A stretch of 33,817 nt of DNA, from positions 1 through 33,817 of the forward strand of contig JANXWA010000005.1 of NCBI GenBank assembly GCA_025351385.1, read 5' to 3'. The notes beneath the pieces are model-generated. The model saw nothing but the letters and a program-made list of their open reading frames with translations, searched no databases and had not been told where the DNA came from. Source of the stretch: Acidimicrobiales bacterium (GTDB lineage Bacteria > Actinomycetota > Acidimicrobiia > Acidimicrobiales > RAAP-2). Positions 2,609-20,504 of the stretch are shown here, piece by piece (positions within the stretch are counted from its first letter, which is position 1; each line of letters starts with the position of its first letter). A program made the position numbers and the translations under genes.

Positions 2609-5600
2609 TTGTCAAAGTTGCGCCGGACCCCGCCGACAATCGTCAAGTTACCGCAGCCGTCACGTGAGAAGGCGGCGGGGTTGAACGGCGCCCCAATCGA
2701 CCCCGCCACCGTTCAGTTTGAACTCGACTACGCCCAGTTGGAAGAGACCTTCGGTCCGCTCATCGACCCTCACGTGATCTACCGGGCCGTACGCGACCGC
2801 AAGGGACGGGTCGTCGACTTCGAGTACATCGGAGCCAACGATGCGGCGATCGCCGTCAATAAGACCACTCGCGACCAGCTGATCGGCGCGCGACTGTTGA
2901 GCCTCTTCCCTGGGCACGTCGCGTCGGGTCTCTTCGACAAATTCGTCCATACGGTGCAGACCGGTGAGCCCTTGATCGTCGACGACTTCTTCAATCCCGG
3001 CCAGACCGACGGCACCGACCACTACTACGACCTTCGGGGTGTGAAGGTCGGTGACTCGCTCCGCTACAGCTGGCGCGACGTGACCGAGCGCCATCAACTC
3101 CTCGAGCAGTTCCAACTGCTCGCGGAGAACGCGTCGGACATCGTCATGCGCACTGAGCCCGAAGGTCCGATCACGTGGGTCTCACCATCGGTGACCAACG
3201 AGCTCGGTTGGCAGCCCGAGCAAGTCGTCGGCCACCGGATCAGCGATTTCGCCCACCCCGATGACCAACACGTGCGTGAAGAGATATTCGCCCAGGTGGA
3301 CGCCACCGGACGCGGTGCGGCAGAGGCTCGTCTGCGCAGTGCTGATGGCGCCTATCACTACTTCGAGGTCAGCGTCCACGACGTCGTCAACGCTCAGGGT
3401 GTCATGTTCGCGAGGATCGCGAGCCTGCGCAACATCGACGAGGAGGTGGCTGGCCGGACGGCCCTCCAGGTCGGTCAGGAGATCCTGGACGCGACGATGC
3501 GCGCCGAGATCGACCCCCACGCGTTGCTCCGGACCCTTCGTGATCAAGAGGGTCGAATCCTCGACTTCGAGTTCGTCGATGCCAATATGGCCGCCACCAA
3601 CTACTTTCGCATCACCCGCGATCGGTTGCTCGGCACTCGTCTGTTGGAGATGATCCCCGACTACGCCTCGACCGGGCTCTTCGACCGCTACGTGCACACC
3701 ATGGAGTCCGGTGAACAGCTGGTGCTCGAGGCCTTCGCCTTCCCCAACTCCGTCACCGGCTTCGACCGGTATTACGACATCCAGGCCGTCAAGGTGGGGG
3801 ACTTGCTCAGCTACAGCTGGCGCGACGTCACCGAGTGGGAACGCACTCTCACGCGTTACCGGTTACTCGCGGAGAATGCGGCCGACGTCGTGTTCCAGAC
3901 CAGTGCCGACTTCGTCATCGAATGGGTCTCACCCTCGGTCAAGCAACTCCTCGGACTCGAACCGAGTGAGATCATCGGCCAGACCATGGTCGATCTCATG
4001 CATCCCGACGACCTCGAGGGTCTGAACCGGACAATTGCAGACACCGGCCCCAACGAGCGCAACACTGCCGAGGCGCGGGTCCGCAACGCCGCCGGCGAGT
4101 ATTGCTGGGTCTCGATCTCGGGTCGGACGCTCGCCGACGATCAGGGCGTCACGACCGGCTTCATCGGAAGCGTGCGCGACATCGAGTCGGACCACGAGAA
4201 TCGCGTGGCGCTCGAGGAGTCCGAGTCGCGCTACCGGCTACTCGCCGAGAACGCCTCGGACGTGATCGTGGTCGGCGACGACCAAGGCCGACTCGAGTGG
4301 GTCTCGGAGTCGGTGGCCGAACTTCTCGGCTGGCGTCCCGAGCAGATGATTGGCGAGTCCGCGAGGGACTACGTGCACGCGGACGATCAGTCCATTGTCC
4401 TCGCTTCGTGGGACCAACTTCGAACGAGTGGGTCGGAAACGTACGAGGTACGAATGCGAACGTCAGAGGCGACGTACCGCTGGGTCTCGGTCGCGGTTCG
4501 CCAGATCTTGGACGACCAGGGACGGCTGGTCAAACGAATCGCCTCGTGGCGCGACGCGCAAGAGGAGGTGGAGAGCCGTTTGGCGCTCGCCGAATCGGAG
4601 CGGCGATTTCGCCTGCTCGCCGAGAACGCCTCGGACGTCATCTACGAGACCAACACCGACGGGGTCATCATGTGGGTCTCGCCCTCGGTCGAGCAGGTGC
4701 TCGGCTGGTCGGCGAAGGACCTGATCGGAGTGGAGGGCGTGACGCTGGTCGTCGAAGACGACCTGGCGAAGGCGAGGGAGTGGCGCGCCATTGCCCGCGA
4801 GGGTGGTACGCCCGAGCGACACGAGTCACGCTTTCGTACCAATGACGGCGAATTCTTGTGGATGTCGGTCCAATCGAGTCCGATCCGCGACGCCAACGGC
4901 GTTGTCTCCAACGTGGTCGTGGCCCTGCGCAATGTTCAGGTGGAGGTCCAGGCCCGTCGAGCCCTGACGACGCTCTCCGAGGGCAATCGCAGCCTCGTTC
5001 GGGCCGAGCACGAACTCCAGCTGCTCACCCAGATGTGCCAGGTCGCCGTCGACCAGGGCGGCTACCAGTTCGCCTGGTACGGCCGGCGCGTGGACGACGC
5101 CGAGCACAGTGTCGCGAAGCTGGCCTCGAGCAGGCTCCATCGCGAGTATCTCTACGAGATCGACGTGAACTGGGGCGAAAGCCCCACCGGGCAGGGTCCC
5201 GCCGGACGGGCCATTCGACTCGGAGAGACCGTGGTCACCCAGGACTTCCGAGCCGACATCCGGATGATGCCCTGGGCGAAGGCCGCGGCCGCGCAGGGGA
5301 TGCGCTCGTCGGTCGCTCTGCCCGTGCGCGTCGGCGGGCAGATCGACGGCGCCCTATTGGTCTACGCCCCCGAGCCGCACGGCTTCGACGAGTTCGCCGT
5401 CGGAGTCCTCGAGGACCTCGCCATCGAGATCGGCTTCGGCATCAAGCGGCTGCGCGACCGCGAGCTGCTCGTCAAGTCCCTCAGTGACCAGGCGCTGCTC
5501 ACGAACGCCATCGAACAGTCGGGCGAGGCGATCGTCATCAGTGATCCGACGACGAACATCGTGTACGTCAACCCCGCCGCTCTGCGTTCGAGCGGCTACA

Positions 5601-7072
5601 CGCGCGAGGAGTTGATGGGGGAGAATCCCCGGATCTTCCAGAGTGGACTGCAGACCCATCGGTTCTACGAGGACATGTGGGCCGAGTTGACCGGCGGTCA
5701 ATCGTGGCGTGGCGTGCTCGTCAATCGCAGCAAGGACGGCGATCTCTACGAGGAGGACACCACGATCTCGCCCATCCACGACGCCGACGGGACGCTCGTC
5801 GCCTACGTCGCGGTCAAGCACGATCTGACGATCGAGCGTCGTCTGGAGGCCGACCTCTCACGCGAGCAACGTGACCGCAACTCCATCGTCAAAGTGATGC
5901 GCGCGATCCGACCGGCCGAGACGATCCAGGCGACGGCCGGCGCGTTCTGCGAGACCGCCACCCGGTTGGCCAACGTCGACGCGATGTGCGTGATGCTACG
6001 TGATGACTCGGGGGCTCTACTGCCAGTGGCGTTGAGCGGGTCGAAGATCTTCGACGTCAACGAGGAGTTCCTCCTGGTTCCCAACGTCGACCTACTCGAC
6101 CGCATCATGGACGGCCCGGTCCAACTCGACATGGACCCGGCCAAGTGGCCAGGCAACCCCCACGTGCGCGAGGCAGCGCTTGGGGAGGGGCTGCGCAACG
6201 TCGTCATGTCTCCGATCCGATGGGAGGGCGAACTGATCGGGGTGCTCGGCATCGGCACCAGGGATGACGTCCCGATTGACCAGGCCGAGGCTCGTTTCTC
6301 GTACTTCGAGGAGCTCGGCTCCTACGCCGGGACCTTCTTCGGCGCCCAGGCCGAGGCCTACCGGAACCGTTCGGCGCTGCGCAGCCAGTTGCGCAACATC
6401 ATCGACGCCCGTCGGTTCCATCCCGTGTTCCAGCCGGTCATCGACCTTCTGAACGGCGCGATCGTCGGCTACGAGGCGTTGACGCGATTCGACGACGGCG
6501 CGCAGCCGGACGTGCGCTTCATCGAGGCGCACACGGTGGGCCTCGGGACCGAGTTAGAGGCCGCCTGCGTCGAGGAGGCGCTCGAGGCCTCGAAGAGCTT
6601 GGGGTCCGAGCTATTCCTCAGCCTCAACTTCTCCCCGGCCGCCCTCCTCGACGGCCACGCCGCGGCGACCCTGGCCCACGTGGGGCGCAAGATCATCATC
6701 GAGGTCACGGAGCACGCTCGCATCGACAACTACGCCGCAGTGCGAAGGGCCGTGGACGCGATCGATGGCTGTCGACTGGCCGTCGACGACGCCGGCGCGG
6801 GATACACGAGCCTCAACCACATCCTCGAACTTCGCCCCGACTACGTGAAGCTCGACATCTCGATCGTTCGTGGTATCGACACGAATCCGGCACGCCAGGC
6901 GATGGCCGCCGGGATGTGCCACTTCGCCGCGCAGAGTGGCACGATCATCATCGCCGAAGGCATCGAGACCGAGGCCGAGGCCCAGACCTTGCGCAACCTC
7001 GGCGTCCCATTGGGGCGCGGCGGCATCCTCGGCCAGGGCTTCCACTTCGCGAGGCCGAGTTCGCTGCCGTAG
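2609..7072 (+). CDS. Multi-PAS/GAF sensor with C-terminal EAL phosphodiesterase domain
   Basis: A 1487-residue cytoplasmic protein with no membrane segment. It starts at TTG 2609 behind GATGGAG (2594-2600). Domains in order: PAS-like ~45-150, PAS ~165-280, PAS-like ~295-405, three PAS domains ~412-525, 537-650 and 662-775, GAF ~800-945, PAS ~965-1080, GAF ~1095-1255, EAL ~1265-1485. The phrase 'LLAENAsDV' recurs at about residues 170, 420, 545 and 670, showing internal duplication. The EAL domain keeps the catalytic set: E1289 of EAL, N in SLNFSP, E in IEVTE, the Asp pair in DDAGAG, K in VKLD, E in AEGIE and Q in GQG. It should therefore hydrolyse c-di-GMP to pGpG under control of the sensory array. 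There is no GGDEF domain. Ligands of the PAS and GAF domains cannot be read from sequence. A deleted paralogue lies just upstream. Confidence 0.93.
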   Translation: MSKLRRTPPTIVKLPQPSREKAAGLNGAPIDPATVQFELDYAQLEETFGPLIDPHVIYRAVRDRKGRVVDFEYIGANDAAIAVNKTTRDQLIGARLLSLFPGHVASGLFDKFVHTVQTGEPLIVDDFFNPGQTDGTDHYYDLRGVKVGDSLRYSWRDVTERHQLLEQFQLLAENASDIVMRTEPEGPITWVSPSVTNELGWQPEQVVGHRISDFAHPDDQHVREEIFAQVDATGRGAAEARLRSADGAYHYFEVSVHDVVNAQGVMFARIASLRNIDEEVAGRTALQVGQEILDATMRAEIDPHALLRTLRDQEGRILDFEFVDANMAATNYFRITRDRLLGTRLLEMIPDYASTGLFDRYVHTMESGEQLVLEAFAFPNSVTGFDRYYDIQAVKVGDLLSYSWRDVTEWERTLTRYRLLAENAADVVFQTSADFVIEWVSPSVKQLLGLEPSEIIGQTMVDLMHPDDLEGLNRTIADTGPNERNTAEARVRNAAGEYCWVSISGRTLADDQGVTTGFIGSVRDIESDHENRVALEESESRYRLLAENASDVIVVGDDQGRLEWVSESVAELLGWRPEQMIGESARDYVHADDQSIVLASWDQLRTSGSETYEVRMRTSEATYRWVSVAVRQILDDQGRLVKRIASWRDAQEEVESRLALAESERRFRLLAENASDVIYETNTDGVIMWVSPSVEQVLGWSAKDLIGVEGVTLVVEDDLAKAREWRAIAREGGTPERHESRFRTNDGEFLWMSVQSSPIRDANGVVSNVVVALRNVQVEVQARRALTTLSEGNRSLVRAEHELQLLTQMCQVAVDQGGYQFAWYGRRVDDAEHSVAKLASSRLHREYLYEIDVNWGESPTGQGPAGRAIRLGETVVTQDFRADIRMMPWAKAAAAQGMRSSVALPVRVGGQIDGALLVYAPEPHGFDEFAVGVLEDLAIEIGFGIKRLRDRELLVKSLSDQALLTNAIEQSGEAIVISDPTTNIVYVNPAALRSSGYTREELMGENPRIFQSGLQTHRFYEDMWAELTGGQSWRGVLVNRSKDGDLYEEDTTISPIHDADGTLVAYVAVKHDLTIERRLEADLSREQRDRNSIVKVMRAIRPAETIQATAGAFCETATRLANVDAMCVMLRDDSGALLPVALSGSKIFDVNEEFLLVPNVDLLDRIMDGPVQLDMDPAKWPGNPHVREAALGEGLRNVVMSPIRWEGELIGVLGIGTRDDVPIDQAEARFSYFEELGSYAGTFFGAQAEAYRNRSALRSQLRNIIDARRFHPVFQPVIDLLNGAIVGYEALTRFDDGAQPDVRFIEAHTVGLGTELEAACVEEALEASKSLGSELFLSLNFSPAALLDGHAAATLAHVGRKIIIEVTEHARIDNYAAVRRAVDAIDGCRLAVDDAGAGYTSLNHILELRPDYVKLDISIVRGIDTNPARQAMAAGMCHFAAQSGTIIIAEGIETEAEAQTLRNLGVPLGRGGILGQGFHFARPSSLP

Positions 7073-7117: not shown

Positions 7118-8290
7118 TCAGCCGAGGTAGGGGAGCACGTCGTTCGCCCAGGTGAAGGTCATTGGTGGCAATGACCCACGAGGCGCCTCGATGAGGTCGA
7201 CGTACGAGGCGGATCCGTTCACCATGGCGAAGCCGGTGCCCATCTCGCAGTTCGCACAGTCGAGTCCGACGCCGGGGTTGTAGCCCGGGTCCGAGCCGAG
7301 CAGCTCGGCACGGTGGGCCCAACAACCATCGGCGCGCGCCGACGTGCAGGCGACGTTCGAGGTGGCGGCCGCGCTTCCGGCCCAGCCGTCGGCGTACATC
7401 CAGACGTAGTCGGCGGCGAGGACCGAGTAGCCGCTGGACCAGGCACCGCCCATCGCGGGGACGCCCTGGGCGTCGTTCGCGACCGGGAAGCCCGGGGCGA
7501 GCGACGGGTCGGCGTTGGTCTGCGCGGCGCTCTGCGCTGCGGCGCTGAGAGTGGCGTTGAGGCCGAGGTAGGCGTGAAGTCCGCGGGCCGTGCGCTCGAG
7601 GTCGGCGACCACGAAGAGCTGCTGGGCGGTGGAGAGCGAGTACCAGTTCGTCGGGAGCACCATCGCGGCCAGCCCCTCGATGGATCGGGCGTGGTCGATC
7701 GCCGAGAGCACGTAGTTGGTGCAGCGAGAATCGTTAGTGAAGGCCGGCCAGGTCGACTGGGCCGTCACGCACGGGTTCTGGTAGGTGACGACACCGTTGA
7801 CGTCCTCACCGGTGCCCGAGGTCTGGAAGTCCGGACTCGCCACGATGTTGGTCGAGAGGCGCAAGGCAAAGGACGGGGGAGTGGGGGCCGACGCCGGCGC
7901 GCTGTGCGGCGCCGGCGTCGAGGATGGGGCCGACCGAGTGGTCGGCGTCGATTGGGCGCCAGTGACGGTGCTCGTGCTTTGCGTATTGGACGAGACGGCC
8001 GTGGCGTGGGCGCTGGTCGGGGTTGGCGACGGCGACGGCGACGGGGATGGCGATGACGTGTTGACGGTGGTGGTGGGAGTGGTCGCGGTGGCGGACGTCG
8101 TCGTCATGGGCGTCGCGGCGATCGGTCGCGCGAGGATCATGAGGGCCGTGGTCGAGAGGACGATGGCCATTACGGAGGCGCCGATCGAAGCCACGAGCGC
8201 CGATCGGCGCGAGCGGACGTGGTGCGTCGAGTGAATAGGAGTAGCGGTATTCCCGCTGAAGCTCTGCCCTTGCGCCTTCATGGTTGCCAT
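7118..8290 (-). CDS. Membrane-anchored CAP/SCP-like extracellular protein
   Basis: A 390-residue protein with a basic N-terminus, one hydrophobic segment at ~31-55 (signal anchor or uncleaved signal), then a Ser/Thr/Pro-rich linker including PSPSPSPSPTP to about residue 145, and a folded C-terminal domain. That domain has a pattern I associate with actinobacterial CAP-like secreted proteins: an Asn/Arg-rich helix with 'EGLAAMVLP', 'LERTARGL', an Asp-Tyr-Val-Trp-Met-Tyr segment and a 'CWAHRAELL' motif whose His resembles the CAP His. It also has several Cys residues that could pair outside the cell. The family is recognised by pattern only. The ATG at 8290 has a poor ribosome-binding site. The ATG at 8281 (residue 4), behind GAAAGATGG, is an equally good start. 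The gene stands alone and points towards the PAS/EAL gene, ending 45 bp from its stop. Confidence 0.75.
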   Translation of the reverse strand: MATMKAQGQSFSGNTATPIHSTHHVRSRRSALVASIGASVMAIVLSTTALMILARPIAATPMTTTSATATTPTTTVNTSSPSPSPSPSPTPTSAHATAVSSNTQSTSTVTGAQSTPTTRSAPSSTPAPHSAPASAPTPPSFALRLSTNIVASPDFQTSGTGEDVNGVVTYQNPCVTAQSTWPAFTNDSRCTNYVLSAIDHARSIEGLAAMVLPTNWYSLSTAQQLFVVADLERTARGLHAYLGLNATLSAAAQSAAQTNADPSLAPGFPVANDAQGVPAMGGAWSSGYSVLAADYVWMYADGWAGSAAATSNVACTSARADGCWAHRAELLGSDPGYNPGVGLDCANCEMGTGFAMVNGSASYVDLIEAPRGSLPPMTFTWANDVLPYLG

Positions 8291-9101: not shown

Positions 9102-9920
9102 ATGGCCAAGAAATCCGCTTCGTCCGATCATGGACGGGTGCCATCGCCGCTTGCGGCGGAGCTACCGCGGGCCCTCGACCGGGACCAGTTCTTCCTGGTG
9201 TACCAGCCCGAGATCGACCTTCAGACCAACGCCTTCGCCGGTGTGGAGGCGTTGATTCGCTGGCGCCACCCAGAGCTCGGCGTTGTCGACCCCGACTCGT
9301 TCGTGCCCCAGCTCGAAGCCAGTGGCGACATCGTGAAGGTCGGTCGTTGGGCTCTCGAGACGGCCTGCGCCCAGGGTGGGCGCTGGCACGACAAGGGCTA
9401 CCGCTTCTCGGTGTCGGTGAACGTCTCGTCGCGCCAGGTCCAACGGGACGACTTCGCTGACGAGGTCGACGAAGCGCTGGTGACGAGTCGCTTCGACCCC
9501 GCCCTGCTCGTACTGGAGTTCACGCAGCGGACCCTGTCGAGTAGTGCGACGGCCGACTCCCTGACTTCGCTGAAGTCACTCGGCGTGCGGTTGGCCGTCG
9601 ACGATTTCGTTCCCGGTCGCACGGCATTGAACGATCTGGAGGCGCTGTCGATTGATATCGTCAAGATCGATCGAACGTTCATCGCTTCGATGTCCACGGA
9701 CTCGACATTGGCGGACCAGGTTCACGCGGTCGTCAAGGAGGCCAAGTTGATGCACCTGCAGGTCGTCGCCTCAGGTATCGAGGACGCCGAGCAGCTGCGA
9801 CGCCTTCGTCTCGAGGAAGTGAGTGTCGGGCAGGGATTTCACTTCTCGAGGCCCCACGAGGCCGCGGATATCGACCGGTACCTCGAGGATTTCGCCATCT
9901 TCTCGGGCAAGCCACTCTGA
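9102..9920 (+). CDS. Stand-alone EAL-domain protein with a substituted catalytic glutamate
   Basis: A 272-residue protein that is almost entirely one EAL domain (residues ~20-265). The ATG at 9102 was chosen because AGGGAAG lies 9 nt upstream; an upstream GTG at 9075 lacks a ribosome-binding site. Conserved residues are E49 of EAL, N in VSVNVSS, E in LEFTQ, the Asp pair in VDDF, K188 in VKID and Q in GQGFHF. Two departures stand out. Loop 6 reads DDFVPGR instead of DDFGTGY. The usual AEGxE reads ASGIE, so S224 replaces the glutamate 36 residues after the lysine, the position of the proposed general base (E352 in RocR). It is therefore probably a weak or inactive phosphodiesterase, perhaps a c-di-GMP receptor. 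It is the same size class as Rv1357c and occupies a comparable place upstream of the ThiF/nitroreductase fusion. Confidence 0.9.
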   Translation: MAKKSASSDHGRVPSPLAAELPRALDRDQFFLVYQPEIDLQTNAFAGVEALIRWRHPELGVVDPDSFVPQLEASGDIVKVGRWALETACAQGGRWHDKGYRFSVSVNVSSRQVQRDDFADEVDEALVTSRFDPALLVLEFTQRTLSSSATADSLTSLKSLGVRLAVDDFVPGRTALNDLEALSIDIVKIDRTFIASMSTDSTLADQVHAVVKEAKLMHLQVVASGIEDAEQLRRLRLEEVSVGQGFHFSRPHEAADIDRYLEDFAIFSGKPL

Positions 9921-10047: not shown

Positions 10048-12576
10048 GTGACGCGCGACCTCGAGGCCGCGCCGCCCGACACGGGACTCGGACGTGCCCT
10101 GGACTTTACGCAGGCCTACTCGAGGATGCGCCACGAGGAGAATCGGGCGGCGCTGTTGTCAACCGCCTCCTACGAGGATGGTCTGATCGACCTCGTCGAG
10201 ATGGCCGTGCCGGCGTTCTGCGACTGGTGCATCGTGGACATCGTCGACCGGGGAGGCGGGCCGATGGTCCTCTGTGCCCGACATCGGGGATGTACGCACG
10301 CCGAGAGTCGTCTTCACGTCGACTGCTGCGCGTCCGACGGCGCTTCGCGATGGCCGCAGCGCAGCACCTTGATCGAGCGAGCGCTCTCGAGCGGGGAGAG
10401 CCAGTCGTCGCGTGAGGATCCGAGCGCGACGGCGCGGATTGTGGTCGTCGCGCTCGTCGTCAACGACCTCGCTTTCGGGACGATCACGTTCGCCAGCGAC
10501 CTCGACGGAGAGGGCTTCGCACCATCCGAGGTCGCCGCGGCCGAGGAGGTGACCTGGCGCGCGGCCGACACCATTGAGCGGATCTTGCTGCTGCGCGACA
10601 GCCGCGACGCCGTTCGTCGCACGCAGCGCATCGCGAGCCAACTCCACCAACTCATCGCCGCGTCGATCACGCTGACGAGCATGCGCAACGAGCGCGACAT
10701 CGTGCGCAATATCGCCGGGAGCGCCCAGAGCGTCTTTGACGTTGACGTCGCCGTCGTCTCGCTCGACGCCGGAGTCGTCGCGCCGTTGCGCGGCGTCGCG
10801 TACCGTGGTCGACCGGCCGTGTGCACCGGGCCTGTCGAGAGTCCGGTCGACGATCTTCCCCAGGCGAGAGGCGACGGCAGCGAACCGTGGCTGGAGAACG
10901 GATGGCTCGTGGCCCCGATGGTCGAGCGTCGGGTGCATAACGTCGGCGCGATCGCCATACGACGCGACTCGAACCGGGGCTACAGCACCGAGGACCGTGA
11001 GGTCCTGACCCTGCTCGCCCAGATGGCGACGACCGCACTGGGCGCCGCGGAGTTGAGCCGCTCCATCCAGACCAGCGAGACGAGGCTGCGCGCCCTCATC
11101 GAAACGGCGCCGGTCGGGATCGTCGAAGTCGACGTTGGCGGCCAGGTTCGCTGGTGGAACCGGGCCGCCAGTCGGGTGTTCGCCTGGGCCGAGTTCGACG
11201 ATGGCGGCGGAGGCGGTGCCGCCCGCTTCCCGTCGGGCGCGCTGGACGGACTTCGCGAGTTGTGGGCCGACGTCGTCAAGGGCGGGTCGGTCGCCCTGCG
11301 CGACTTCGTCGACGTCGAGATCGCCGGCCGTCTGCGCATTCTGACGGCGTCGGCGGCCCTGTTGATGAACACCGACGGCGAGGTGCAGGGAATCCTCACG
11401 CTGGTCGATGACGTGACGAACCATCGCCAACTCACCGCCGAGCTGCGACACGCTAACACGATGGAGATCCGGGGCCAGGTGGCGAGTCGTATCGCCCACG
11501 ACTTCAACAATCTGCTCACCTTGATCGCCGGCTACGCGGAGATCCTCTCGCACGACCTTTCGGGCGACGAGCGTTCCTCGCAGATGGTGCGCGACATCCA
11601 GGCGACCGCCTCGCGTGCCTCGCTGCTCACCGGCCAGCTGCAGACCATTGGACGGACCAACGCCACCGAACCGGTCGTGTTCAATCCCGTCACCATCATC
11701 CAGTCCAACGCCGAGGTGCTCGAGCGGATCCTGGGCGGCGAGATCGATCTGCAGTGGGGGCTCGACGAGGCCGTCGGCAACGTGCGCGCTGACGCCGACC
11801 AGTTCGAGCAGATGATCCTCAACCTGTCGATCAACGCCCGTGACGCCATGCCCGACGGGGGCGTGCTGCGAATCGCGGCGGCCGACGTCACGCTCGACGG
11901 TGAGCGAGCCTTCGAAAATGGCCTGCTCGCGGGCGACTTCGTCGTGCTCACGGTCACCGACACGGGCGTGGGCATGGACGAGGCGACCCGGGAGCGTTGC
12001 TTCGAGCCACTCTTCACGACGAAGGGGCCCTTCAAGGGCACCGGAATGGGGCTGTCGTCGGCTCGACGATTGGTCGAGGAGAGCGGGGGCGCGATCCGAT
12101 GCACGTCGGCGGTGGGCGCGGGCACGACGTTCGAGATCCTCCTGCCCGTCGTGGATGAGCCGGTGGTCGAGGTCCCTCGGTTGGCCGACGTCGTGCGACC
12201 GCGAGGTTCGGCGACCGTACTGCTCGCCGAGGACGATGAGGTGCTTCGACGACTCATGAGCCAGGTCTTACAGCGAAACGGCTACCAGGTGATCGAGAGT
12301 GAGTCGGGGGAACGGGCCCTGGAACTCGCCGTCGAGATCGATGGTACCTTCGACCTCCTCCTCAGTGACGTAGTGATGGGCGGTATGAACGGTCATGAGC
12401 TCGCCGCCACGCTCCAGTCGCGCCTACCGTCGCTGCGGGTGCTGCTCGTCTCGGGAACCCAGGACGCGAGTATCGTGGCCGACCTGACGCCTGGCCAATC
12501 GGGCTTCCTCGCCAAGCCCTTCAAGCCGAGCGAGTTGATCGACAGCGTTCACGAACTCTTGACGCGGCGCGGCTGA
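10048..12576 (+). CDS. Hybrid sensor histidine kinase (GAF-GAF-PAS-HisKA-HATPase-REC)
   Basis: An 842-residue soluble hybrid kinase without membrane segments. Two GAF-like regions (~25-185 and ~200-335) precede a PAS domain (~348-465). A phosphoacceptor helix follows with H484 in RIAHDFNNLL, then an ATPase domain with N-box NLSINARDAMP, G1 DTGVGMD, F-box FEPLFTTK and G2 GTGMGLS. The C-terminal receiver has acidic pocket AEDDE, phospho-acceptor D774 in LLSDVVM and lysine in LAKPFKP. It should autophosphorylate and pass phosphate to its own receiver, and perhaps on to the regulator encoded tail-to-tail 11 bp away. The GTG at 10048 has only a weak AGTGGTGAG ahead. It lies 127 bp after the EAL gene on the same strand, so co-transcription is possible. 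Its ligand is unknown. Confidence 0.92.
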   Translation: MTRDLEAAPPDTGLGRALDFTQAYSRMRHEENRAALLSTASYEDGLIDLVEMAVPAFCDWCIVDIVDRGGGPMVLCARHRGCTHAESRLHVDCCASDGASRWPQRSTLIERALSSGESQSSREDPSATARIVVVALVVNDLAFGTITFASDLDGEGFAPSEVAAAEEVTWRAADTIERILLLRDSRDAVRRTQRIASQLHQLIAASITLTSMRNERDIVRNIAGSAQSVFDVDVAVVSLDAGVVAPLRGVAYRGRPAVCTGPVESPVDDLPQARGDGSEPWLENGWLVAPMVERRVHNVGAIAIRRDSNRGYSTEDREVLTLLAQMATTALGAAELSRSIQTSETRLRALIETAPVGIVEVDVGGQVRWWNRAASRVFAWAEFDDGGGGGAARFPSGALDGLRELWADVVKGGSVALRDFVDVEIAGRLRILTASAALLMNTDGEVQGILTLVDDVTNHRQLTAELRHANTMEIRGQVASRIAHDFNNLLTLIAGYAEILSHDLSGDERSSQMVRDIQATASRASLLTGQLQTIGRTNATEPVVFNPVTIIQSNAEVLERILGGEIDLQWGLDEAVGNVRADADQFEQMILNLSINARDAMPDGGVLRIAAADVTLDGERAFENGLLAGDFVVLTVTDTGVGMDEATRERCFEPLFTTKGPFKGTGMGLSSARRLVEESGGAIRCTSAVGAGTTFEILLPVVDEPVVEVPRLADVVRPRGSATVLLAEDDEVLRRLMSQVLQRNGYQVIESESGERALELAVEIDGTFDLLLSDVVMGGMNGHELAATLQSRLPSLRVLLVSGTQDASIVADLTPGQSGFLAKPFKPSELIDSVHELLTRRG

Positions 12577-12587
12577 AAGCGCAGTCC

Positions 12588-13295
12588 CTAGGAGGAGCCA
12601 GCCTCGACTTCGAAGCGGTAGCCCACGCCGCGCACGGTTGTGATCCAGCGCGGGTGGTCGGGATCGGTCTCGAGTTTGGCACGGAGCCGGCGGATGTGCT
12701 CGGTCACCGTTGCCTCGTTCTGCCACTCACCCGACGACTCCCAGACGTGCTCGAGCAGCTGCTCGCGCGAGAAGACCTGGCGCGGCGAGCGAGCGAGGAA
12801 GACCAGTAGCGCGAACTCTTTGGACGTGAGTTCGAGCAACTCCCCACCGACGTGGACCTCGTGGGTGTTCTCGTTGATCAACAGGTCACCGAAGCGCATG
12901 GTCGGCGCGTCGATCTGGTGTTGGGCGAGATTGGCGCCGGCCCGGCGAAGCACCGATTCAATGCGCGCCGAGACCTCACCGAGGGAGAAGGGCTTGACAA
13001 TGTAGTCGTCGGCGCCCAACTTCAGTCCAGCAATGCGCTCGGATTCGAGTCCCCGACCCGTCAGGAAGATTGTCGGCACGTCGCTAATGAGCCGGATCTC
13101 CTTCAAGACGTCGCGGCCGTCCTCCTCACCGAGTCCGATGTCGAGCAGAACGAGGTCCGGTGTCATGGACGCCGTGGCCCGCAGCGCCTCGGCACCGTCG
13201 ATCGCGATCACCACCTCGAAACCCTCGCCCGTGAGGTATCTCTCGAGCATGTTGGCGTTGGCCAGGTCGTCCTCGACGACCAGGATCTTGGTCAC
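12588..13295 (-). CDS. OmpR/PhoB-family response regulator
   Basis: The protein has 235 residues if it starts at GTG 13295, which follows GGTGGGGA at good spacing and gives the normal family beginning (VTKILVVEDD). An in-frame ATG at 13343 would add an atypical extension. The receiver domain (1-115) has E8/D9/D10, phospho-acceptor D52 in LVLLDIG and K in DYIVKPF. The winged-helix DNA-binding domain (~130-230) has the ending WITTVRGVGYRFE. It is a transcription factor. It converges on the hybrid kinase gene with an 11-bp gap and is divergent from the ThiF-fusion gene, so it could regulate either itself or the c-di-GMP block through the shared 363-bp region. The partner kinase is inferred from position only. 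Confidence 0.93.
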   Translation of the reverse strand: MTKILVVEDDLANANMLERYLTGEGFEVVIAIDGAEALRATASMTPDLVLLDIGLGEEDGRDVLKEIRLISDVPTIFLTGRGLESERIAGLKLGADDYIVKPFSLGEVSARIESVLRRAGANLAQHQIDAPTMRFGDLLINENTHEVHVGGELLELTSKEFALLVFLARSPRQVFSREQLLEHVWESSGEWQNEATVTEHIRRLRAKLETDPDHPRWITTVRGVGYRFEVEAGSS

Positions 13296-13658
13296 GAGTC
13301 CCCACCGCTCCCCGAGATTGAAATTGCGACAATACCGAGACAACGGCGTCCCAAGTCCCAGGTCGGAGACCGCGGGCGGCGTTGCTTTGGAGGTCGGGCG
13401 CTCTGCACGCTGTCATTCTATGGACTTTGTCGAGCATTCGAGGTCCTCGCGCACGGGAATCTTCGTGGCGACCGGCGAGACCACCGGTCCCGGGCGAGGT
13501 GACGACGGGGCCACCCACCGACGCGTTGACGCACTCCGTCACGAAGAAGTAACGGTGAGGTTCCACCATTTTCAATGTGGCCGTCACTATAGTTTTTTGG
13601 GAAAAGGCTGCACTTTCACGGTGGCTAGAACTCAATCGCAGAGCAGAATAGGTGGTCA
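13296..13658. promoter_or_regulatory. Divergent promoter region between regulator and ThiF-fusion genes
   Basis: A 363-bp spacer must drive both the response regulator (leftward) and the ThiF fusion (rightward). A TATAGT at 13585-13590 is a reasonable -10 for the rightward gene, about 70 nt before its GTG, but I see no convincing -35. It is followed by TTTTTTGGG, a string that also lies upstream of the EAL gene (about 9014-9022). I see no gene here. Confidence 0.35.
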
Positions 13659-16559
13659 GTGGGTAACTCAATCGGTCGCCGGTACCGGTACGGCTCGAGT
13701 TTCGTGGACCAAGACTCCGGTGTGCGATTTGAGGGTCACCACCCTCTGGAGCGCCCCGACCTCTGGAAGATGTACCTCAACGAGGCCGAGGGAAAGTACC
13801 GGAGCCACGGCTTCGAGGGCACGCTCCGTCGCCAGGAGCTCGAGGACGGCCATGACGTTCCGCTCTTCTTCCTCGGATTCAACGCCGAGGGCGAGCCGGT
13901 GGCGGGGGTCCGATTCCACGGTCCCCTCGAGGGCAGCCACCAGGCATTTCTCATGGAGGAGATGGCCGACTCGCCCGAGATCGAGGACATCCAGGCCCTG
14001 ATCGAGAGAGAGATTCGCCTCGGGGCGATCGAGGTGAAGGGCGCCTGGTCGAAGGGCGCGGCGGTGACGGGCGTGCGATTGATCGCGGCGATCACGCGCT
14101 CGGCGACGCACGCAATGAACTGGCTCGGCGCCGAATTCGCCATCGCGGCGGTATCCGACACGCTGGAGGAGGTCGGCACTCCGGCCGGCGGCCGCAAGTT
14201 CGGAACCGCGTCGGTGCCGTATCCCGACGAGCGCTACCGGACGATCTGCGTGTCGTGGGAGCGTAGTCGTAGCTACGAGCTCTGCACTCCGCCGCACCAG
14301 CAGGCGCTGCGCCGAGAGGCCGAGGAGTTGCTGCGCGGACCGGCCCGACTGGGACTGAGCCCGATCGAACCGGCGTCGACGAGGACCCGGGCCTGTCGCC
14401 CCCTCGTCATGGACGTGGGCGGACGGGCCCACCGCGAGGTGCTGCGAGTGCTGCGCGAGGACTCGTCGTTGCACATCATCGATCGTCTCGCCGAACAGCG
14501 CGAGCAGCTGGGTGGGATCATCCCGACGCCTGCCACGGCGCTGCTCGAGGAGGGATCGCGCTGGGTGTACTACCCGTGGCGTCGGTCCGTCGTCCGCCTC
14601 CTGGCGCCGCGCTCGTTCTCGACGCTTCGTCTCGATCGCAACCGCAACAAGCTGACCCGTGCCGAGCAGGCCCGTCAGCGATCGCTTCGAATCGGGGTGG
14701 TCGGCCTCAGTGCCGGTCACTCGATTGCTCACGTGATCGCGATGGAGGGTCTGGCGGGCGAGATCCGTCTCGCCGACTTCGACACGCTGGAGCTCTCGAA
14801 CCTGAACCGCATCCCCGCCAGTGTGCTGGACCTCGGCATCAATAAGGCCGTCGTCGCCGCGCGCCGCATCGCCGAAATCGACCCATACCTGCGCGTCGTC
14901 GTCGAACCCGAGGGAATCCGGCCGGAGAATCTCGGCACCTTCCTCGATGGCCTCGACCTCGTCATCGAAGAGTGCGACTCGTTGGACATGAAGTTCCTGG
15001 TGAGAGAGGCTGCCCGAGAGCGCCGGATCCCCGTGTTGATGGAGACAAGTGACCGTGGCGTGCTCGACGTGGAGCGCTTCGACCTCGAGCCGGACCGTCC
15101 GATCTTCCACGGCCTGCTCGGCGACATGGACTCGTCGAAGCTGTCGGGTCTCACCCAAGCGCAAAAGGCGCCGTTCGTCATCCGCATCGTGGGCGCGCGC
15201 GAGGCCTCGTCGCGCGGTGCGGCGTCGCTGCTCGAGGTGGGCATCACGATCACCGGTTGGCCGCAGCTCGGTAGCGAGGTCACCCTCGGCGCGGCGACCG
15301 TCGCCGCGGCCGTTCGGCGCATCGGCCTCGCGGGCGAACTGCCGTCGGGCCGGGTCCGCTTCGACGTCGAGGAGATCCTCTCGGCGCTCGGTCCCGTCGA
15401 GGTCAACCTCGAGGCCGAGGCCGACCTGTTCACCCCGCCGCCCGAGGACCCGCCACTCGAGAGCGACGACCCGATCGAGATGATCGTCGACGCCGCGCGA
15501 CGCGCGCCGTCAGGCGGCAACGTCCAGCCGTGGCGCTTCGAGGCCGACGACCGCGAGGTCCGGTTCTTCATGCTCCCCGAACGCACGTCGTCGATGGACG
15601 TGGCGCACCGTGGCTCGTACGTCGGCATCGGCGCGGCCCTGTTCAACGCTCGCGTGCAGGCCGCGTCGATGAAGGTCCTCGGACCGGTGAGGCTCTTCCC
15701 CGAGGGGCGCCCGTCGCACCACGTGGCGACGATGCAGCTGAGTACGTCGGGCGACGTCGGGATCGCGCCGCTCGTCAGCTACCTCCACTCTCGTGCGACC
15801 AACCGTCGGATGGGCCAGCCGGCGCCGGTCTCGGCGGAGGTCGTCGCCAGTCTGTCGCGCGGCGTGGAGCGCGAAGGCGCCCAGTTACACTTCGTCACCG
15901 AGCGCACGCGAATTGACTCCGGCGCGGACCTTCTCGCGGCCTCGGACCGACTGCGGTTCCTACTGCCGACCGTGCACCAAGAGATGCTCTCCGAGGTGAA
16001 GTGGCCCGGTCGCGACTCGCTTGACGAGGGTCTCGACGTGCGCACCCTGGAGATGGACCCGGGGGGCTACGCGGCCCTCGACCTGTTGAGTCGTCCCGAC
16101 GTCATGAGTCATTTGGCTGACTGGCGCGCCGGACAGGCGCTCGGGATGCGCATGAAGGCCTCGATCATGACCAGCTCGGCTCTCGCGGTCGTGACGGTGC
16201 CGCGCGCCGACCCCATGTGGTACGTGCGCGGCGGCGCGGCGATGGAGCGGTTCTGGCTCAGCTGTGAGATGCACGGATTGGCCGTGCAACCGTCGTCGCC
16301 GGTCTTCTTGTACGCCGTGGACGAGTCGGACCTCGTGCAGCTGTCGGGGGAGCGCTACTTCGACGAGATGTACCAGCTCTTCGACCGGTTCAACGAGTTC
16401 TGGGGGCTCGGCGACGGTGAGACGGCCGTCATGGTCTTTCGGGTCTTCCAGGCCCCGCCGCCGTCGGTGCACAGCGTCCGCCTGCCGTTGGCCCACGTCT
16501 TGAGCCGCGATCCGGACTCCGTGGAGCCGATTGTGCCTCTCAGAGTCGAGAACTGGTGA
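13659..16559 (+). CDS. Rv1355c/MoeY-like fusion: acyltransferase-like + ThiF (E1-like) + nitroreductase-like
   Basis: A 966-residue soluble protein starting at GTG 13659 behind AGGTGG. Residues ~30-205 resemble a GNAT/N-acyl amino acid synthase-type fold (FLGFNAEGEPVAGVRF, AIEVKGAWSKG); this part is tentative. Residues ~340-560 are a ThiF/E1-like adenylation domain: GVVGLSAGHS replaces the usual GxGxxG, followed by DFDTLELSNLNR, a conserved lysine in GINKAVVAARRIAEIDP and the E1-type ECDSLDMK. There is no CxxC zinc pair and no obvious thioester cysteine after the adenylation core. Residues ~600-955 are nitroreductase-like, with ARRAPSGGNVQPW as the FMN-phosphate region. Mycobacterial Rv1355c (annotated MoeY, ~715 residues as I recall) has the ThiF and nitroreductase parts. 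Despite that name, nothing here shows a molybdopterin role. The GGDEF-EAL gene follows 146 bp downstream, as in M. tuberculosis. Confidence 0.82.
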   Translation: MGNSIGRRYRYGSSFVDQDSGVRFEGHHPLERPDLWKMYLNEAEGKYRSHGFEGTLRRQELEDGHDVPLFFLGFNAEGEPVAGVRFHGPLEGSHQAFLMEEMADSPEIEDIQALIEREIRLGAIEVKGAWSKGAAVTGVRLIAAITRSATHAMNWLGAEFAIAAVSDTLEEVGTPAGGRKFGTASVPYPDERYRTICVSWERSRSYELCTPPHQQALRREAEELLRGPARLGLSPIEPASTRTRACRPLVMDVGGRAHREVLRVLREDSSLHIIDRLAEQREQLGGIIPTPATALLEEGSRWVYYPWRRSVVRLLAPRSFSTLRLDRNRNKLTRAEQARQRSLRIGVVGLSAGHSIAHVIAMEGLAGEIRLADFDTLELSNLNRIPASVLDLGINKAVVAARRIAEIDPYLRVVVEPEGIRPENLGTFLDGLDLVIEECDSLDMKFLVREAARERRIPVLMETSDRGVLDVERFDLEPDRPIFHGLLGDMDSSKLSGLTQAQKAPFVIRIVGAREASSRGAASLLEVGITITGWPQLGSEVTLGAATVAAAVRRIGLAGELPSGRVRFDVEEILSALGPVEVNLEAEADLFTPPPEDPPLESDDPIEMIVDAARRAPSGGNVQPWRFEADDREVRFFMLPERTSSMDVAHRGSYVGIGAALFNARVQAASMKVLGPVRLFPEGRPSHHVATMQLSTSGDVGIAPLVSYLHSRATNRRMGQPAPVSAEVVASLSRGVEREGAQLHFVTERTRIDSGADLLAASDRLRFLLPTVHQEMLSEVKWPGRDSLDEGLDVRTLEMDPGGYAALDLLSRPDVMSHLADWRAGQALGMRMKASIMTSSALAVVTVPRADPMWYVRGGAAMERFWLSCEMHGLAVQPSSPVFLYAVDESDLVQLSGERYFDEMYQLFDRFNEFWGLGDGETAVMVFRVFQAPPPSVHSVRLPLAHVLSRDPDSVEPIVPLRVENW

Positions 16560-16705: not shown

Positions 16706-19018
16706 ATGGGAAGTCACTCACAATCGAATTTGGACCGGGCCGGCGAGGAAACGCGCCTGGTCGTCGAGACGCTCCTGCAAGTCGTCCCGGGAACCCAGAT
16801 CGTCGCCGTGGTGACCCTCCTCGAACGGCCGATCCCGGGCTTCGAACTGGATCCGCTGGTCAGCGCCAAGTCCCAGCTGGCCTTTGACAAGATCAGCGAG
16901 CGGGTGCGCGGCCAACTGGTCGGCGACACTCCGCTCGGCTCCTTCTCCTCGGTCGTCCAGGGCATCGAGTGGGGCATCCTCGTGGACCCCATCAAGGTTC
17001 AGGCAGGTGACATTGTCGGCGCGCTCGTCGTGGCGCGCCACGGGCGGACCTGGTCGGCCCGTGAGCGGTCGCTGACGAGGGCCTTCGGCAGCCTCTTGAG
17101 CCACGTGGCGACCCTCGCCACCCGCGAGGGACTCTTGTTGCACCAGCGCCGCCTCGACGAGCTGGTCGCCCAGGTCGCCGAGCGCCTCATGTCCACCTCA
17201 GCGGAGAACCGCCAGGAGACCCTCGACTGGGTCTGCCAGATGCTGGCCGAGTTCCTCGTCGCCGACGTCGCCTTCATCCGGCGCAACGACCTCAACCGCG
17301 AGCTGAGCATCCTCGAGGCCGAGTACCCGATCCGACTCGACAAGCCCGACCCCGACCCGCTAGGCGAGGTGGCCTTCGACGTCGACCCGCTCTTCATGGC
17401 GACGCGCGATATGCGCGTGCCGTACCTGACGGGTGGCGAGGACGTCACCGACGAGTACAAGGACCGCGCGAAGGACGCCGCCGGCGTGACGCCGGCCGCC
17501 GGCGCGGCCGTGCCGCTCCTGCTTGGCGACTTGACCTGGGGCGTGCTCGGCTTCCTCCACTTCAACCTCCACGACTGGGTCCCCGCCGAGGTCAACGCCC
17601 TGCAGGCGGTTGCATCGATGCTCGTCCAGCTCCAGGCGCGGATCGAGGCCGAGGAGCGCACCCGCTATAACGCGAACCACGACGAGTTGACGGGCCTGCC
17701 CAACCGACGGGCCCTGATCGCCGAGCTGAAGAGCCGTCTCGACGCGCGCCGCGAAACGGCCGTCATGGTGATCGACCTCGACCGATTCAAGATCATGAAC
17801 GACTTCCTCGGCCACGGATCGGGTGACCGCCTCCTCGTCACCATTGCCGACCGGATCCGCACGAGCATCCGGGCCAACGACTTCGCCGCGCGCCTTGGCG
17901 GCGACGAGTTCGTGTTCATCGTCGACAAGGCTCGCAGCGAGATGGAGGTGCTGGCGACGGCTTACCGGATCCTGGACATCATCTCCCAGCCGGTCGCGAT
18001 CTTCGGCCAGGAGGTCAGCCACACCGCCTCGATTGGCATCGCCCTGGCCCAGCCCGGCGAGCAGAGCGGCCTCGACCTACTTGGATTCGCCGATGTCGCG
18101 ATGTACGCCGCGAAGGCGCGCGGCCGCAATCAGGCGGTCGTCTTCGACCGTGAGCTGCGTGAAGAGGTCAACGAGCGCTCCCGCACTGAGTTGCAGTTGC
18201 GTGAGGCGATCGACCTCGGCGGTCTGCGCCTGCACTTCCAACCCGAGGTGGACCTGCGCACCGGACGGGTCCTCGCCGCCGAAGCCCTGGTCCGCTGGGA
18301 GCACCCCACGAGGGGACTGCTGGCCGCCTCGGAGTTCATCACCGTCGCCGAGGAGACCGGCCTCGTCACCGAGATCGGTCGCTGGGTCTTCGCCGAGGCC
18401 TGTCGGCAACTGGGCATCTGGCAGAGGCAGTTCCTCGACCTGCCGTTCATCGTTCGCGTCAACATGTCGCCGGCCGACTTCAAAATGGGCAAGATGGACG
18501 ACCTGGTCGAGTTCGTCGAGCGCTGCCTGCTCGAGAACAACGTGCCGGGCAATCGCATCTGCATCGAGATCACCGAGTACGCCGTCGCCGACGACCCCGA
18601 GCGGATCGCCGGGATTTTGAAGGGCTTCCAGGCCCTCGGCGTCGAGGTCGCGCTCGACGACTTCGGTACCGGCTTCGCCTCGATGACCCAGCTGAAGGAC
18701 CTGCCGGTCAACCTCTTGAAGCTCGACATGAGCTTCGTGCGCGGCATCACCACCGACAACTACGACCGCGCGATCGTCGAGTCGATCATCCGCCTGGGCG
18801 CCGCGCTCAACCTGGGCGTCATCGCCGAGGGCATCGAGTCGCCGGTCATCGTCGAGAAGCTCCTCGAGCTGGGCTGTCACCGCGGTCAGGGCTACCTAAT
18901 CTCGCGCCCGGTCCCGGCCTCGGAACTGGCCTCGATGCTCGGTGAGGGACTGGTCGCGGAGGAAGTACTGCGTCCCAGCCGGAGCAGCTCGTCCGAACTG
19001 GCAGAATTGCCGCTGTGA
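16706..19018 (+). CDS. GAF-GGDEF-EAL bifunctional c-di-GMP enzyme (Rv1354c-like)
   Basis: A 770-residue soluble protein. Two GAF-like regions (~15-150 and ~160-310) precede a GGDEF domain (~325-490) and an EAL domain (~500-745). The GGDEF site is canonical (RLGGDEF, G398-F402), and RAND exactly five residues before it forms an RxxD inhibitory I-site. The EAL site is complete: E526 in EAL, N in VNMSP, E in IEITE, DDFGTGF, K in LKLD, E in AEGIE and Q in GQGY. Both cyclase and phosphodiesterase activities are thus expected, switched by the GAF input. The ATG at 16706 has a rather distant AAAGG. Its stop overlaps the next gene's GTG. Domain order and position after the ThiF/nitroreductase gene match M. 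tuberculosis Rv1354c (family knowledge from memory). Confidence 0.94.
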   Translation: MGSHSQSNLDRAGEETRLVVETLLQVVPGTQIVAVVTLLERPIPGFELDPLVSAKSQLAFDKISERVRGQLVGDTPLGSFSSVVQGIEWGILVDPIKVQAGDIVGALVVARHGRTWSARERSLTRAFGSLLSHVATLATREGLLLHQRRLDELVAQVAERLMSTSAENRQETLDWVCQMLAEFLVADVAFIRRNDLNRELSILEAEYPIRLDKPDPDPLGEVAFDVDPLFMATRDMRVPYLTGGEDVTDEYKDRAKDAAGVTPAAGAAVPLLLGDLTWGVLGFLHFNLHDWVPAEVNALQAVASMLVQLQARIEAEERTRYNANHDELTGLPNRRALIAELKSRLDARRETAVMVIDLDRFKIMNDFLGHGSGDRLLVTIADRIRTSIRANDFAARLGGDEFVFIVDKARSEMEVLATAYRILDIISQPVAIFGQEVSHTASIGIALAQPGEQSGLDLLGFADVAMYAAKARGRNQAVVFDRELREEVNERSRTELQLREAIDLGGLRLHFQPEVDLRTGRVLAAEALVRWEHPTRGLLAASEFITVAEETGLVTEIGRWVFAEACRQLGIWQRQFLDLPFIVRVNMSPADFKMGKMDDLVEFVERCLLENNVPGNRICIEITEYAVADDPERIAGILKGFQALGVEVALDDFGTGFASMTQLKDLPVNLLKLDMSFVRGITTDNYDRAIVESIIRLGAALNLGVIAEGIESPVIVEKLLELGCHRGQGYLISRPVPASELASMLGEGLVAEEVLRPSRSSSSELAELPL

Positions 19019-19911
19019 GTTCGAAACCCGGTTTGGCTGGCGAGTCCACGCACATGAACGGTGACAGGCAACCCGAGGTCGAGGCGACCCTGACTGCTAT
19101 ACACAGCGTGGTGCCCGACGACGACAACTTCACCGAGAGCGCCTACGAGCCGTGGCTCTTCCAGACGATGCTGTCCGAGCTCTCCGAGAAGGAGCTCGGC
19201 GTCGGGTTCATCTACTCGGTGCTCGACCTCTTCGCTCAGCGCCACGGCCTCACCGACGCGGTCGTCGTGCTCGTGCACGAGTCGTTCGGCACTCAGATGT
19301 TCCGCCTGGGCGGCCTGGCGGTCACCTCGGAGATGGCGGCGCACATTGGATCGGAGCCGGGCGTGTTCTGCGAGCCCGACACCGTGCCGGCCGTCGAGTG
19401 CGACGCCGTACGCACCGCGTGTCAGCTCTCGTTGTCACTGCACCTCGCACGCTTCAGCGCGGCCCACGACCCTTTGACCAACATCGCCAATCGACGCAGC
19501 TTCGACGAGGCGCTCGAGGTCGCTTCCGCTCGCAGTGCCCGCTACGGCTGGGCCTTCACGCTGGTGCTCGTGGACCTCAACAACTTCAAGGCCGTCAACG
19601 ACCGGTCGGGCCACGAGTTCGGTGACAACATGCTGCGCCAGTTCGGCTTCGCGCTTCGCCAGGCCGTGCGCCAGGGCGACGTCGCCGCGCGAGTCGGCGG
19701 CGACGAGTTCGCCGTCATCTTGAGCAACGCCGAGGGCCACGAGTCGTCCGGCTTCACGGAGCGGCTGCGCGGTCACCTCACGGCCGTGGGCAACATGGTC
19801 GAGTTCACGATCGGCACGTCGACCTCGCCACGGGACTCGACCGATCCGGCCGAGCTGTTGCGCATGGCTGACGGCCGCCTCTACGAGAAGAAGGGCAGTC
19901 GCAACTCATGA
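19015..19911 (+). CDS. GGDEF diguanylate cyclase
   Basis: A 298-residue soluble protein. Residues ~30-150 form an uncharacterised, perhaps GAF-like, sensory region. The GGDEF domain spans ~155-295 with DPLTNIANRRSF at the start, the metal-binding DLNNFKAVND and an intact RVGGDEF (G228-F232). RQGD five residues before the GG is an RxxD I-site, predicting product inhibition. The GTG at 19015 overlaps the previous stop as GTGA, pointing to translational coupling with the GGDEF-EAL gene. An ATG at 19054 behind GGCGAG is a possible alternative start. It likely synthesises c-di-GMP from two GTP. Confidence 0.92.
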   Translation: MSSKPGLAGESTHMNGDRQPEVEATLTAIHSVVPDDDNFTESAYEPWLFQTMLSELSEKELGVGFIYSVLDLFAQRHGLTDAVVVLVHESFGTQMFRLGGLAVTSEMAAHIGSEPGVFCEPDTVPAVECDAVRTACQLSLSLHLARFSAAHDPLTNIANRRSFDEALEVASARSARYGWAFTLVLVDLNNFKAVNDRSGHEFGDNMLRQFGFALRQAVRQGDVAARVGGDEFAVILSNAEGHESSGFTERLRGHLTAVGNMVEFTIGTSTSPRDSTDPAELLRMADGRLYEKKGSRNS

Positions 19912-20504
19912 TGTCGAGAACCGAAGAGGACTTCGAACTCGAACTGCGCTCACTGCCGGGCGTGCTCAACATCGGTAAGACCCACCGGGAGAACGGCGAC
20001 GTCGACGTCGTGACCCTCGTCGTCAACTCCAAGGACCCCGGCGCCACCCGCAACGCCGCCACGCAGATCGCGAGCCTCTACTTCCCCGAGGCGGCCGTCG
20101 TCGTGGAGGACGCCAATCGCGCCCTGGCCTCCGAGCGAAGCGAGGGCCCCCGAGTCGCGCTCGTGCGCGCCGACTACGACACGACCGACGGATTTTGCGA
20201 GGTGCAGCTCTCCTTCGATGGACGCGTCGGCATCGGTCGCGCCGGCAGCGGTCCGCTGATCGGCGGTGCCGAGGCCACCATCGCCGCCCTACGCGACCTC
20301 GGCTACGACGTCCCGTTCTCGCTCATGACCGTCACCAACGTCACCAACGGCCGTGACTGGCCGGTCATCGTGACGTTGCGCTCGCTCTCCAACGACGCCG
20401 ACCGATTCGGCATCGCGCGCTCCGAGGACGACCTCGTCTCGGCCGTGAAGGCGACCCTCGACTCGCTCAACCGCTTCCTCTCGACGCTCGAAGGTCGCCA
20501 CTAG
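19908..20504 (+). CDS. Conserved hypothetical protein, ACT-like + LeuA-dimerisation-like
   Basis: 198 residues, starting at ATG 19908 and overlapping the GGDEF gene's stop as ATGA. A second ATG follows immediately at 19911. The N-terminal ~65 residues (LRSLPGVLNIGKTH, VTLVVNSKDP) look like a small ACT-type alpha/beta domain. Residues ~80-195 (CEVQLSFDGRVGIGRAGSG, GAEATIAALRDLGYDVPF, AVKATLDSLNRFL) resemble the allosteric/dimerisation domain of isopropylmalate synthase LeuA, as found in small actinobacterial proteins without the catalytic barrel. No catalytic residues are evident, so a ligand-sensing or protein-binding role is possible. Tight coupling to two c-di-GMP enzymes suggests, but does not prove, a link to that signal. 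The family assignment is from pattern only. Confidence 0.8.
   Translation: MMSRTEEDFELELRSLPGVLNIGKTHRENGDVDVVTLVVNSKDPGATRNAATQIASLYFPEAAVVVEDANRALASERSEGPRVALVRADYDTTDGFCEVQLSFDGRVGIGRAGSGPLIGGAEATIAALRDLGYDVPFSLMTVTNVTNGRDWPVIVTLRSLSNDADRFGIARSEDDLVSAVKATLDSLNRFLSTLEGRH

Follow-up and report, generated by a model that had tools for sequence, protein, structure and literature searches.

Can an EAL domain that has lost its catalytic base serve a neighbouring histidine kinase as its c-di-GMP sensor? This question is raised by a gene at positions 9102-9920 (+ strand, stop codon included) of a stretch of 33,817 nucleotides from an Acidimicrobiales bacterium, which was analysed as a whole and is called the window here. 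A preliminary description of this DNA had interpreted the gene product as an EAL domain turned into a c-di-GMP receptor with a connection to a phosphorelay. As a whole, this interpretation is partly supported by our analysis, and it is confirmed that the observation belongs to a family of proteins and not to one sequence. We slightly favour, with a probability of about 0.55, the reading that a catalytically dead, ligand-competent EAL protein forms a separate c-di-GMP sensor subunit of the hybrid kinase encoded downstream. Literature is given by PMC number.

Catalytic and ligand residues in the EAL protein family

Translation from the ATG at 9102 to the stop codon at 9918-9920 yields a protein of 272 aa; alternatively, translation could begin at the in-frame GTG at 9075. 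The open reading frame, Pfam and an AlphaFold2 model characterise it as a stand-alone degenerate EAL protein. One EAL domain (PF00563, residues 19-251) covers nearly the whole protein length, and both its score of 198.6 bits (curated cut-off 31.3) and the EAL barrel fold of the model place the protein in the EAL family.

The catalytic-base Glu is replaced by S224 (codon TCA, 9771-9773), which is located 36 residues after K188 (9663-9665) and aligns with the Glu of the AEGVE motif in the EAL domains of BifA (PDB 8arv) and MorA, in line with what had been claimed for this gene. In RocR numbering, position 224 corresponds to E352; a search for the RocR E352/E268 wording in open-licence literature found nothing. 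Loop 6 from D167 to R173 (9600-9620) reads DDFVPGR, also as described before. A further replacement had been overlooked: Q142 (9525-9527) stands at the second Glu of the E-x-T-E motif, the anchor of loop 6. The other metal ligands had been said to remain, and E49, N107, E139, D167, D168, K188 and E227 are indeed present.

Relatives were gathered from genomes of the genus and from named genome contigs. Using the numbering of the window protein, family columns were derived from 28 distinct full-length stand-alone proteins including that of the window; excluded were 12 loci repeating a contig under another identifier and L076, a fragment with a 146-aa frame that shares the loop-6 pattern and has Ser as base residue. 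The other 27 orthologues are about 52-65% identical to the window protein and have stop-to-stop frames of 274-414 aa. The group consists of uncultured bacteria from soil and peat: the close relatives are Acidimicrobiaceae MAGs, many of them labelled palsa, bog or fen, and one family member (L057) comes from a MAG without an established genus. For comparison, 67 EAL domains were used, which are the nearest non-family matches and thus picked by similarity, not randomly. Removed from this set were two partial EAL matches (L083, L084), one identical row, and L120 and L127, which repeat L034 and L032. It includes a few oddities; L031 and L121, from the genus genomes G036 and G204, represent a second, separate degenerating EAL in frames of 763 aa. 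Their metal sites are damaged (SVGVT or SVKLS for SVNVS; NDFGTWY or VDFGTWY for DDFGTGY) and the base Glu is present.

Replacement of the base is not unique to one sequence. Position 224 is Ser in 20 and Ala in 8 of the 28 family members, and position 142 is Gln in 19, Arg in 6 and Leu, Tyr or His in one each; Glu is found at neither, while all 67 comparison domains have both the base Glu and the anchor Glu. Within loop 6, position 170 is never Gly, position 171 is Pro in 26 and Leu in 2 members (Thr in 0/28), and Y173 occurs once. Active EAL phosphodiesterases were recognised by the base Glu, the anchor Glu and a loop 6 of the form DDFG(T/S)GY, and neither Glu nor the Gly at 170 is found in any of the 28 proteins. 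The losses are concentrated: among 61 positions conserved to at least 85% in the comparison set, 45 are still conserved to at least 85% in the family and 16 are not. Nine of these 16 drop to 39-82%, whereas seven (T141, E142, G170, T171, Y173, S175 and E224) drop to at most 4%, and these seven constitute loop 6, its anchor with the adjoining residue, and the catalytic base. Invariant in 28/28 are E49, L51, R53, N107, E139, D167, K188, G225, E227, Q244 and G245, including the ExLxR ligand motif (E49-A-L-I-R53, 9246-9260) and the metal ligands N107 (9420-9422) and E139 (9516-9518). The ligand contacts are not perfectly fixed, since D168 is Asp in 26 and Asn in 2 members, and D190 is Asp in 24 and another residue in 4.

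Class III inactive EAL domains are described by absent catalytic residues and a degenerate loop 6 (PMC11537037). In the family, base and loop-6 Glu are missing and loop 6 is rewritten, with the metal ligands retained. Judged from these residues, the protein is a predicted class III inactive EAL, comparable to FimX, LapD, BvgR and YdiV, and we infer that it has no phosphodiesterase activity. The ExLxR motif, reported to determine whether an inactive EAL domain binds c-di-GMP (PMC10333796), is present in 28/28 members. The receptor-type signature seen earlier in one gene thus extends over the family and is strengthened by it, with base, loop 6 and loop-6 anchor lost and ligand and metal residues kept.

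These retained residues also leave room for a weak or conditional phosphodiesterase that is local to the kinase and works without the usual base. Four residues of PA3825, each acidic or Asn, coordinate the M1 metal (PMC5301497); by motif, in our own equivalence, they would correspond to E49, N107, E139 and D167, and these and the Lys are retained. Moreover, full-length FimX has been reported as active and its isolated EAL domain as having very little activity (PMC3527489), and an EAL domain can be functional even if some of its signature residues deviate (class II, PMC12900916), which speaks against a receptor. Nevertheless, such an enzyme appears very improbable, as Ala occupies the base in 8/28 members, the loop-6 anchor is gone in 28/28 and loop 6 has a new sequence. 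Elsewhere, EAL domains are predicted to be inactive by the criterion of a lost base (PMC12900916).

Structure, selection and origin

The AlphaFold2 model of the window protein has a pLDDT of 90.4 and a pTM of 0.88. Its best match in the PDB is BifA (8arv; Z 35.5, rmsd 1.6 over 251 residues), and the c-di-GMP-bound EAL structures of FimX (3hv8, Z 29.5) and LapD (3pjt, Z 27.6) are good but less close matches. The nearest structures are therefore active-type EAL phosphodiesterases, which we counted against the receptor reading, although receptor and enzyme cannot be distinguished by the fold that they share.

At the C-terminus, the protein ends with the conserved tail DFAIFSGKPL (9888-9917), the last four residues of which (269-272) have a pLDDT below 50. 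The family consensus is DFxIFSGKPL, with F267, S268, G269 and P271 invariant in the 27 rows of the respective alignment (A2); these residues occur in 1-19% of the comparison EAL domains, making the tail family-specific. Being conserved yet without confident structure, the tail suggests a binding segment.

This tail, on a stand-alone protein predicted to be inactive, also fits the main rival of the receptor reading, according to which the EAL protein controls the kinase or a different partner solely through protein contact and no longer binds c-di-GMP. EAL-only proteins that neither cut nor bind the ligand have precedent in YdiV and STM1697 (PMC10333796). Under such a role nothing would preserve the ligand set, yet the nine ligand or metal residues among the invariant positions, G225 and G245 not counted, persist in 28/28 members from which the catalytic ones are gone. 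We regard this non-binding, YdiV-like role as unlikely, though ahead of the other alternatives.

The EAL gene is evidently maintained: dN/dS lay between 0.055 and 0.369 for 24 of the 25 closest pairs and was undefined for one, so by this measure the gene is under purifying selection. A sporadic substitution, an assembly error and a pseudogene were ruled out by the sharing in 28/28 members and by dN/dS values well below 1 in the 24 pairs.

In the tree, the 28 family proteins form one clade (support 100/100). Its sister (support 99/97) is L055, a 799-aa GGDEF-EAL protein with canonical DDFGTGYS and AEGIE motifs. Most simply, the family would have arisen once, from a GGDEF-EAL phosphodiesterase that lost catalysis on the stem of the clade. 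The change from enzyme to receptor would then be caught between a nearest canonical sister and 28 sampled descendants, with which the order and cost of the loss of catalysis could be traced.

With a family profile run over 248 genomes of the order, a stand-alone member was found, among the matches listed, solely in the genome of the window itself. The other 29 best loci that were read have Glu at the base in 29/29; G116:C156, a listed short frame of 305 aa with one stop inside, is not among these. Six genomes of the genus are named by this search, and rare members elsewhere could be missed. In the same genome as the window, a partial EAL match (G000:C2:118067-118387) lies in a 184-aa frame and comprises EAL positions 124-232 alone.

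The hybrid kinase and other neighbours

As stated in the preliminary description, a hybrid histidine kinase is encoded directly downstream of the EAL gene on the same strand. It comprises 842 aa with GAF, PAS, HisKA, HATPase and receiver domains (10048-12576, +) and starts 127 nt 3' of the EAL gene. All 28 loci with a continuing contig (27 related loci and the window) have an orthologous kinase gene next to the EAL gene, downstream and on the same strand. L087 is outside this count because its contig breaks off; in its genome (G009) the kinase was found at the end of a different contig. A kinase start could be placed in 26 of the 28 loci, where the nearest one lies -4 to 135 nt from the EAL stop, and overlaps of 1-4 nt are possible in L056, L091 and L092. 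Since the same kinase adjoins the dead EAL in every checkable case, the latter is probably the c-di-GMP sensor of this kinase, although gene linkage does not prove contact of the two proteins.

The catalytic boxes of the kinase are intact: in rows with sequence, the phospho-accepting His is found in 27/27, the N-box Asn in 26/26 and the receiver Asp in 24/24. Kinase frames are short in L076 (637 aa) and L090 (542 aa). In 9/27 orthologues (L039, L040, L042, L044, L046, L048, L049, L050 and L052) the match begins at residue 177-196, where the first GAF region seems to be absent or strongly diverged; because of this, no common docking site is evident in that region.

Among 37 genomes of the genus, including that of the window, the EAL gene was found in 22 (once as a fragment), and the kinase occurs in every one of these 22. 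Two further genomes, G002 and G026, contain a diverged kinase without an adjoining EAL gene (three copies, 41-43% identical) and with secreted or repeat-rich proteins encoded upstream, which indicates that the kinase can work alone. In 13 of the 37 genomes these searches found neither the EAL gene nor the kinase as such; one of them, G011, carries a C-terminal kinase half at the edge of a contig. On a quick kinase tree with long branches, from which four cut or split rows were omitted (L050, L051, L076 and L090), two changes are required to explain the EAL-bearing rows, since G011 falls among them; the contig of G011 begins within the kinase gene. No kinase match was found within the 15.7 kb available around the canonical sister L055. 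We consider it possible, at slightly less than even odds, that a two-gene c-di-GMP receptor kinase with a separate dead EAL subunit was invented once in one actinobacterial lineage and has been a fixed pair since.

As the genomes are related, the co-occurrences of EAL gene and kinase are not independent events. EAL and kinase distances correlate in a mirror-tree comparison (r 0.88, 23 loci; 0.58 after removal of the regulator's signal), but this was given little weight because both genes share one species history. Conceivably, common inheritance of the region keeps the two genes adjacent without a functional link, as all loci come from close relatives and the next gene is conserved too: an OmpR-type response regulator (Pfam; 236 aa, 12588-13298, - strand, convergent with the kinase) is present in 25/25 related loci whose contig continues. 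The regulator was looked at in 23 of the 37 genus genomes and is a candidate output of the kinase. Other neighbours vary, however, while order and strand of EAL gene and kinase are constant in 28/28 loci with sequence. The C-terminal part of a 390-aa secreted-looking protein encoded upstream in the window recurs upstream of the EAL-kinase unit in 6/27 related loci, some of which are short upstream, and the block beyond the regulator has the window's orientation in 4, is inverted in 7 and was not seen in 16 of the 27. Mere shared descent hence seems a very poor explanation.

The gene of the 390-aa protein (7118-8290, - strand) has no Pfam or NCBIfam match, and the C-terminal part of its product is also encoded next to the regulator in the two genomes without the EAL gene, G002 and G026. 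Another gene (2609-7072) ends some 2 kb before the dead EAL gene; its 1487-aa product combines repeated PAS domains with GAF and, at the C-terminus, a divergent EAL domain (DDAGAGY loop, base Glu kept).

The genome of the window (2.18 Mb in 36 contigs, 97% complete; the window is contig C13) contains nine EAL and eight GGDEF matches, so c-di-GMP can probably be made. Canonical EAL paralogues are among them, for example one near 37.7-38.5 kb of contig C3 with 49% identity, and they would provide targets if the dead EAL were a dominant-negative partner controlling an active EAL or GGDEF-EAL protein, with the kinase merely co-expressed. Arguing against this, the part that was lost is loop 6, which in PA3825 couples dimerisation to active-site assembly and to activity (PMC5301497). 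Furthermore, the constant neighbour is the kinase, and the GGDEF-EAL block of the window was seen in just 11/27 related loci. We rate this role as quite improbable.

This block includes genes for an Rv1355c-family ThiF-nitroreductase (13659-16559), a GGDEF-EAL protein (16706-19018), a GGDEF protein (19015-19911) and a protein of 198 aa that matched no family (19908-20504). The ThiF-nitroreductase of 966 aa belongs to the Rv1355c family with 907 bits (cut-off 476); matches over the cut-off occur in 7 of 198 sampled genomes of the phylum, its own included. In the six other Rv1355c-bearing stretches (Actinomycetota, 19-20 kb each), a canonical GGDEF-EAL was found in 6/6, at a distance of 5.8 kb from the Rv1355c homologue in L132 and 2.8 kb in L130, which makes the pair of Rv1355c and GGDEF-EAL look old. 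A stand-alone EAL was found in 0/6 by tblastn (E 1e-5). Taken together, these counts tie the dead EAL to the kinase and not to the Rv1355c/GGDEF-EAL pair, and an Rv1357c-like locus is not supported, with no stand-alone EAL found in those six stretches. Nor is the parallel to Rv1357c drawn previously supported by the literature, in which Rv1357c, compared here by description, is treated as an active phosphodiesterase (PMC2994820, PMC12282275). A connection of Rv1355c, moeY or Rv1354c with c-di-GMP was searched for in the literature, and nothing was found.

Proposed mechanism and comparison with known systems

Most likely, the protein is a non-catalytic c-di-GMP receptor acting in trans on the kinase. 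Following this proposal, c-di-GMP would bind in the former active site of the dead EAL and cause it to dock on the kinase in a ligand-dependent manner, perhaps aided by the conserved C-terminal tail. The kinase or phosphatase activity would change, and the signal would be passed to the kinase's own receiver and/or the neighbouring OmpR-type regulator. A link from c-di-GMP to a phosphorelay had been suggested before. Its tie to the kinase is backed by the neighbourhood in 28/28 loci, whereas a strict phosphorelay is not: an Hpt domain (PF01627) had no match at E 0.001 in the 97% complete genome, where a divergent Hpt can escape such a search. For this reason, transfer straight to a regulator is the likelier route.

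Should the pairing function in the proposed way, c-di-GMP would be tied to two-component signalling in the Acidimicrobiia, on whose EAL proteins no paper was found by titles and beginnings of abstracts. By the same parts of the open-licence literature, no description was found of a hybrid kinase constantly paired with a dead stand-alone EAL.

FimX of Pseudomonas and Xanthomonas has the same fold as the window protein, and its degenerate EAL binds c-di-GMP and relays the signal through protein contact, as is proposed for the window protein. Unlike the lone domain beside a kinase, FimX is a multidomain protein with a degenerate GGDEF, and its partner in solved complexes is a PilZ protein (7lkq and 4fou, according to the structure titles). 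LapD likewise uses an inactive EAL with a non-consensus loop 6 as c-di-GMP receptor (PMC3032553), but it is a membrane protein of HAMP-GGDEF-EAL architecture with KVL as EAL motif, whereas the window protein has an intact EAL.

BvgR of Bordetella is an EAL-domain regulator that is predicted to be inactive, with a degenerate loop 6 and without the water-activating Glu, and the two-component regulator BvgA activates its expression (PMC11537037, PMC12805831). BvgR lacks 12 of 13 functional residues (PMC11537037), whereas the window protein in our own mapping keeps 11 of these and lacks the base and the loop-6 Glu. YdiV and STM1697 are inactive EAL-only regulators (PMC10333796), but they are described as binding no c-di-GMP, while the dead EAL family retains ExLxR and the metal residues.

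On the kinase side, SgmT of Myxococcus is a hybrid histidine kinase with GAF that is tuned by a c-di-GMP-binding receptor domain (PMC3509222). This receptor is a GGDEF fused in cis, whereas the system of the window would use an EAL protein in trans. Inactive EAL receptors (FimX, LapD), an inactive EAL in a two-component circuit (BvgR) and a c-di-GMP-tuned hybrid kinase (SgmT) are thus known separately, and the new part is the pairing of a stand-alone, predicted inactive EAL with a hybrid kinase.
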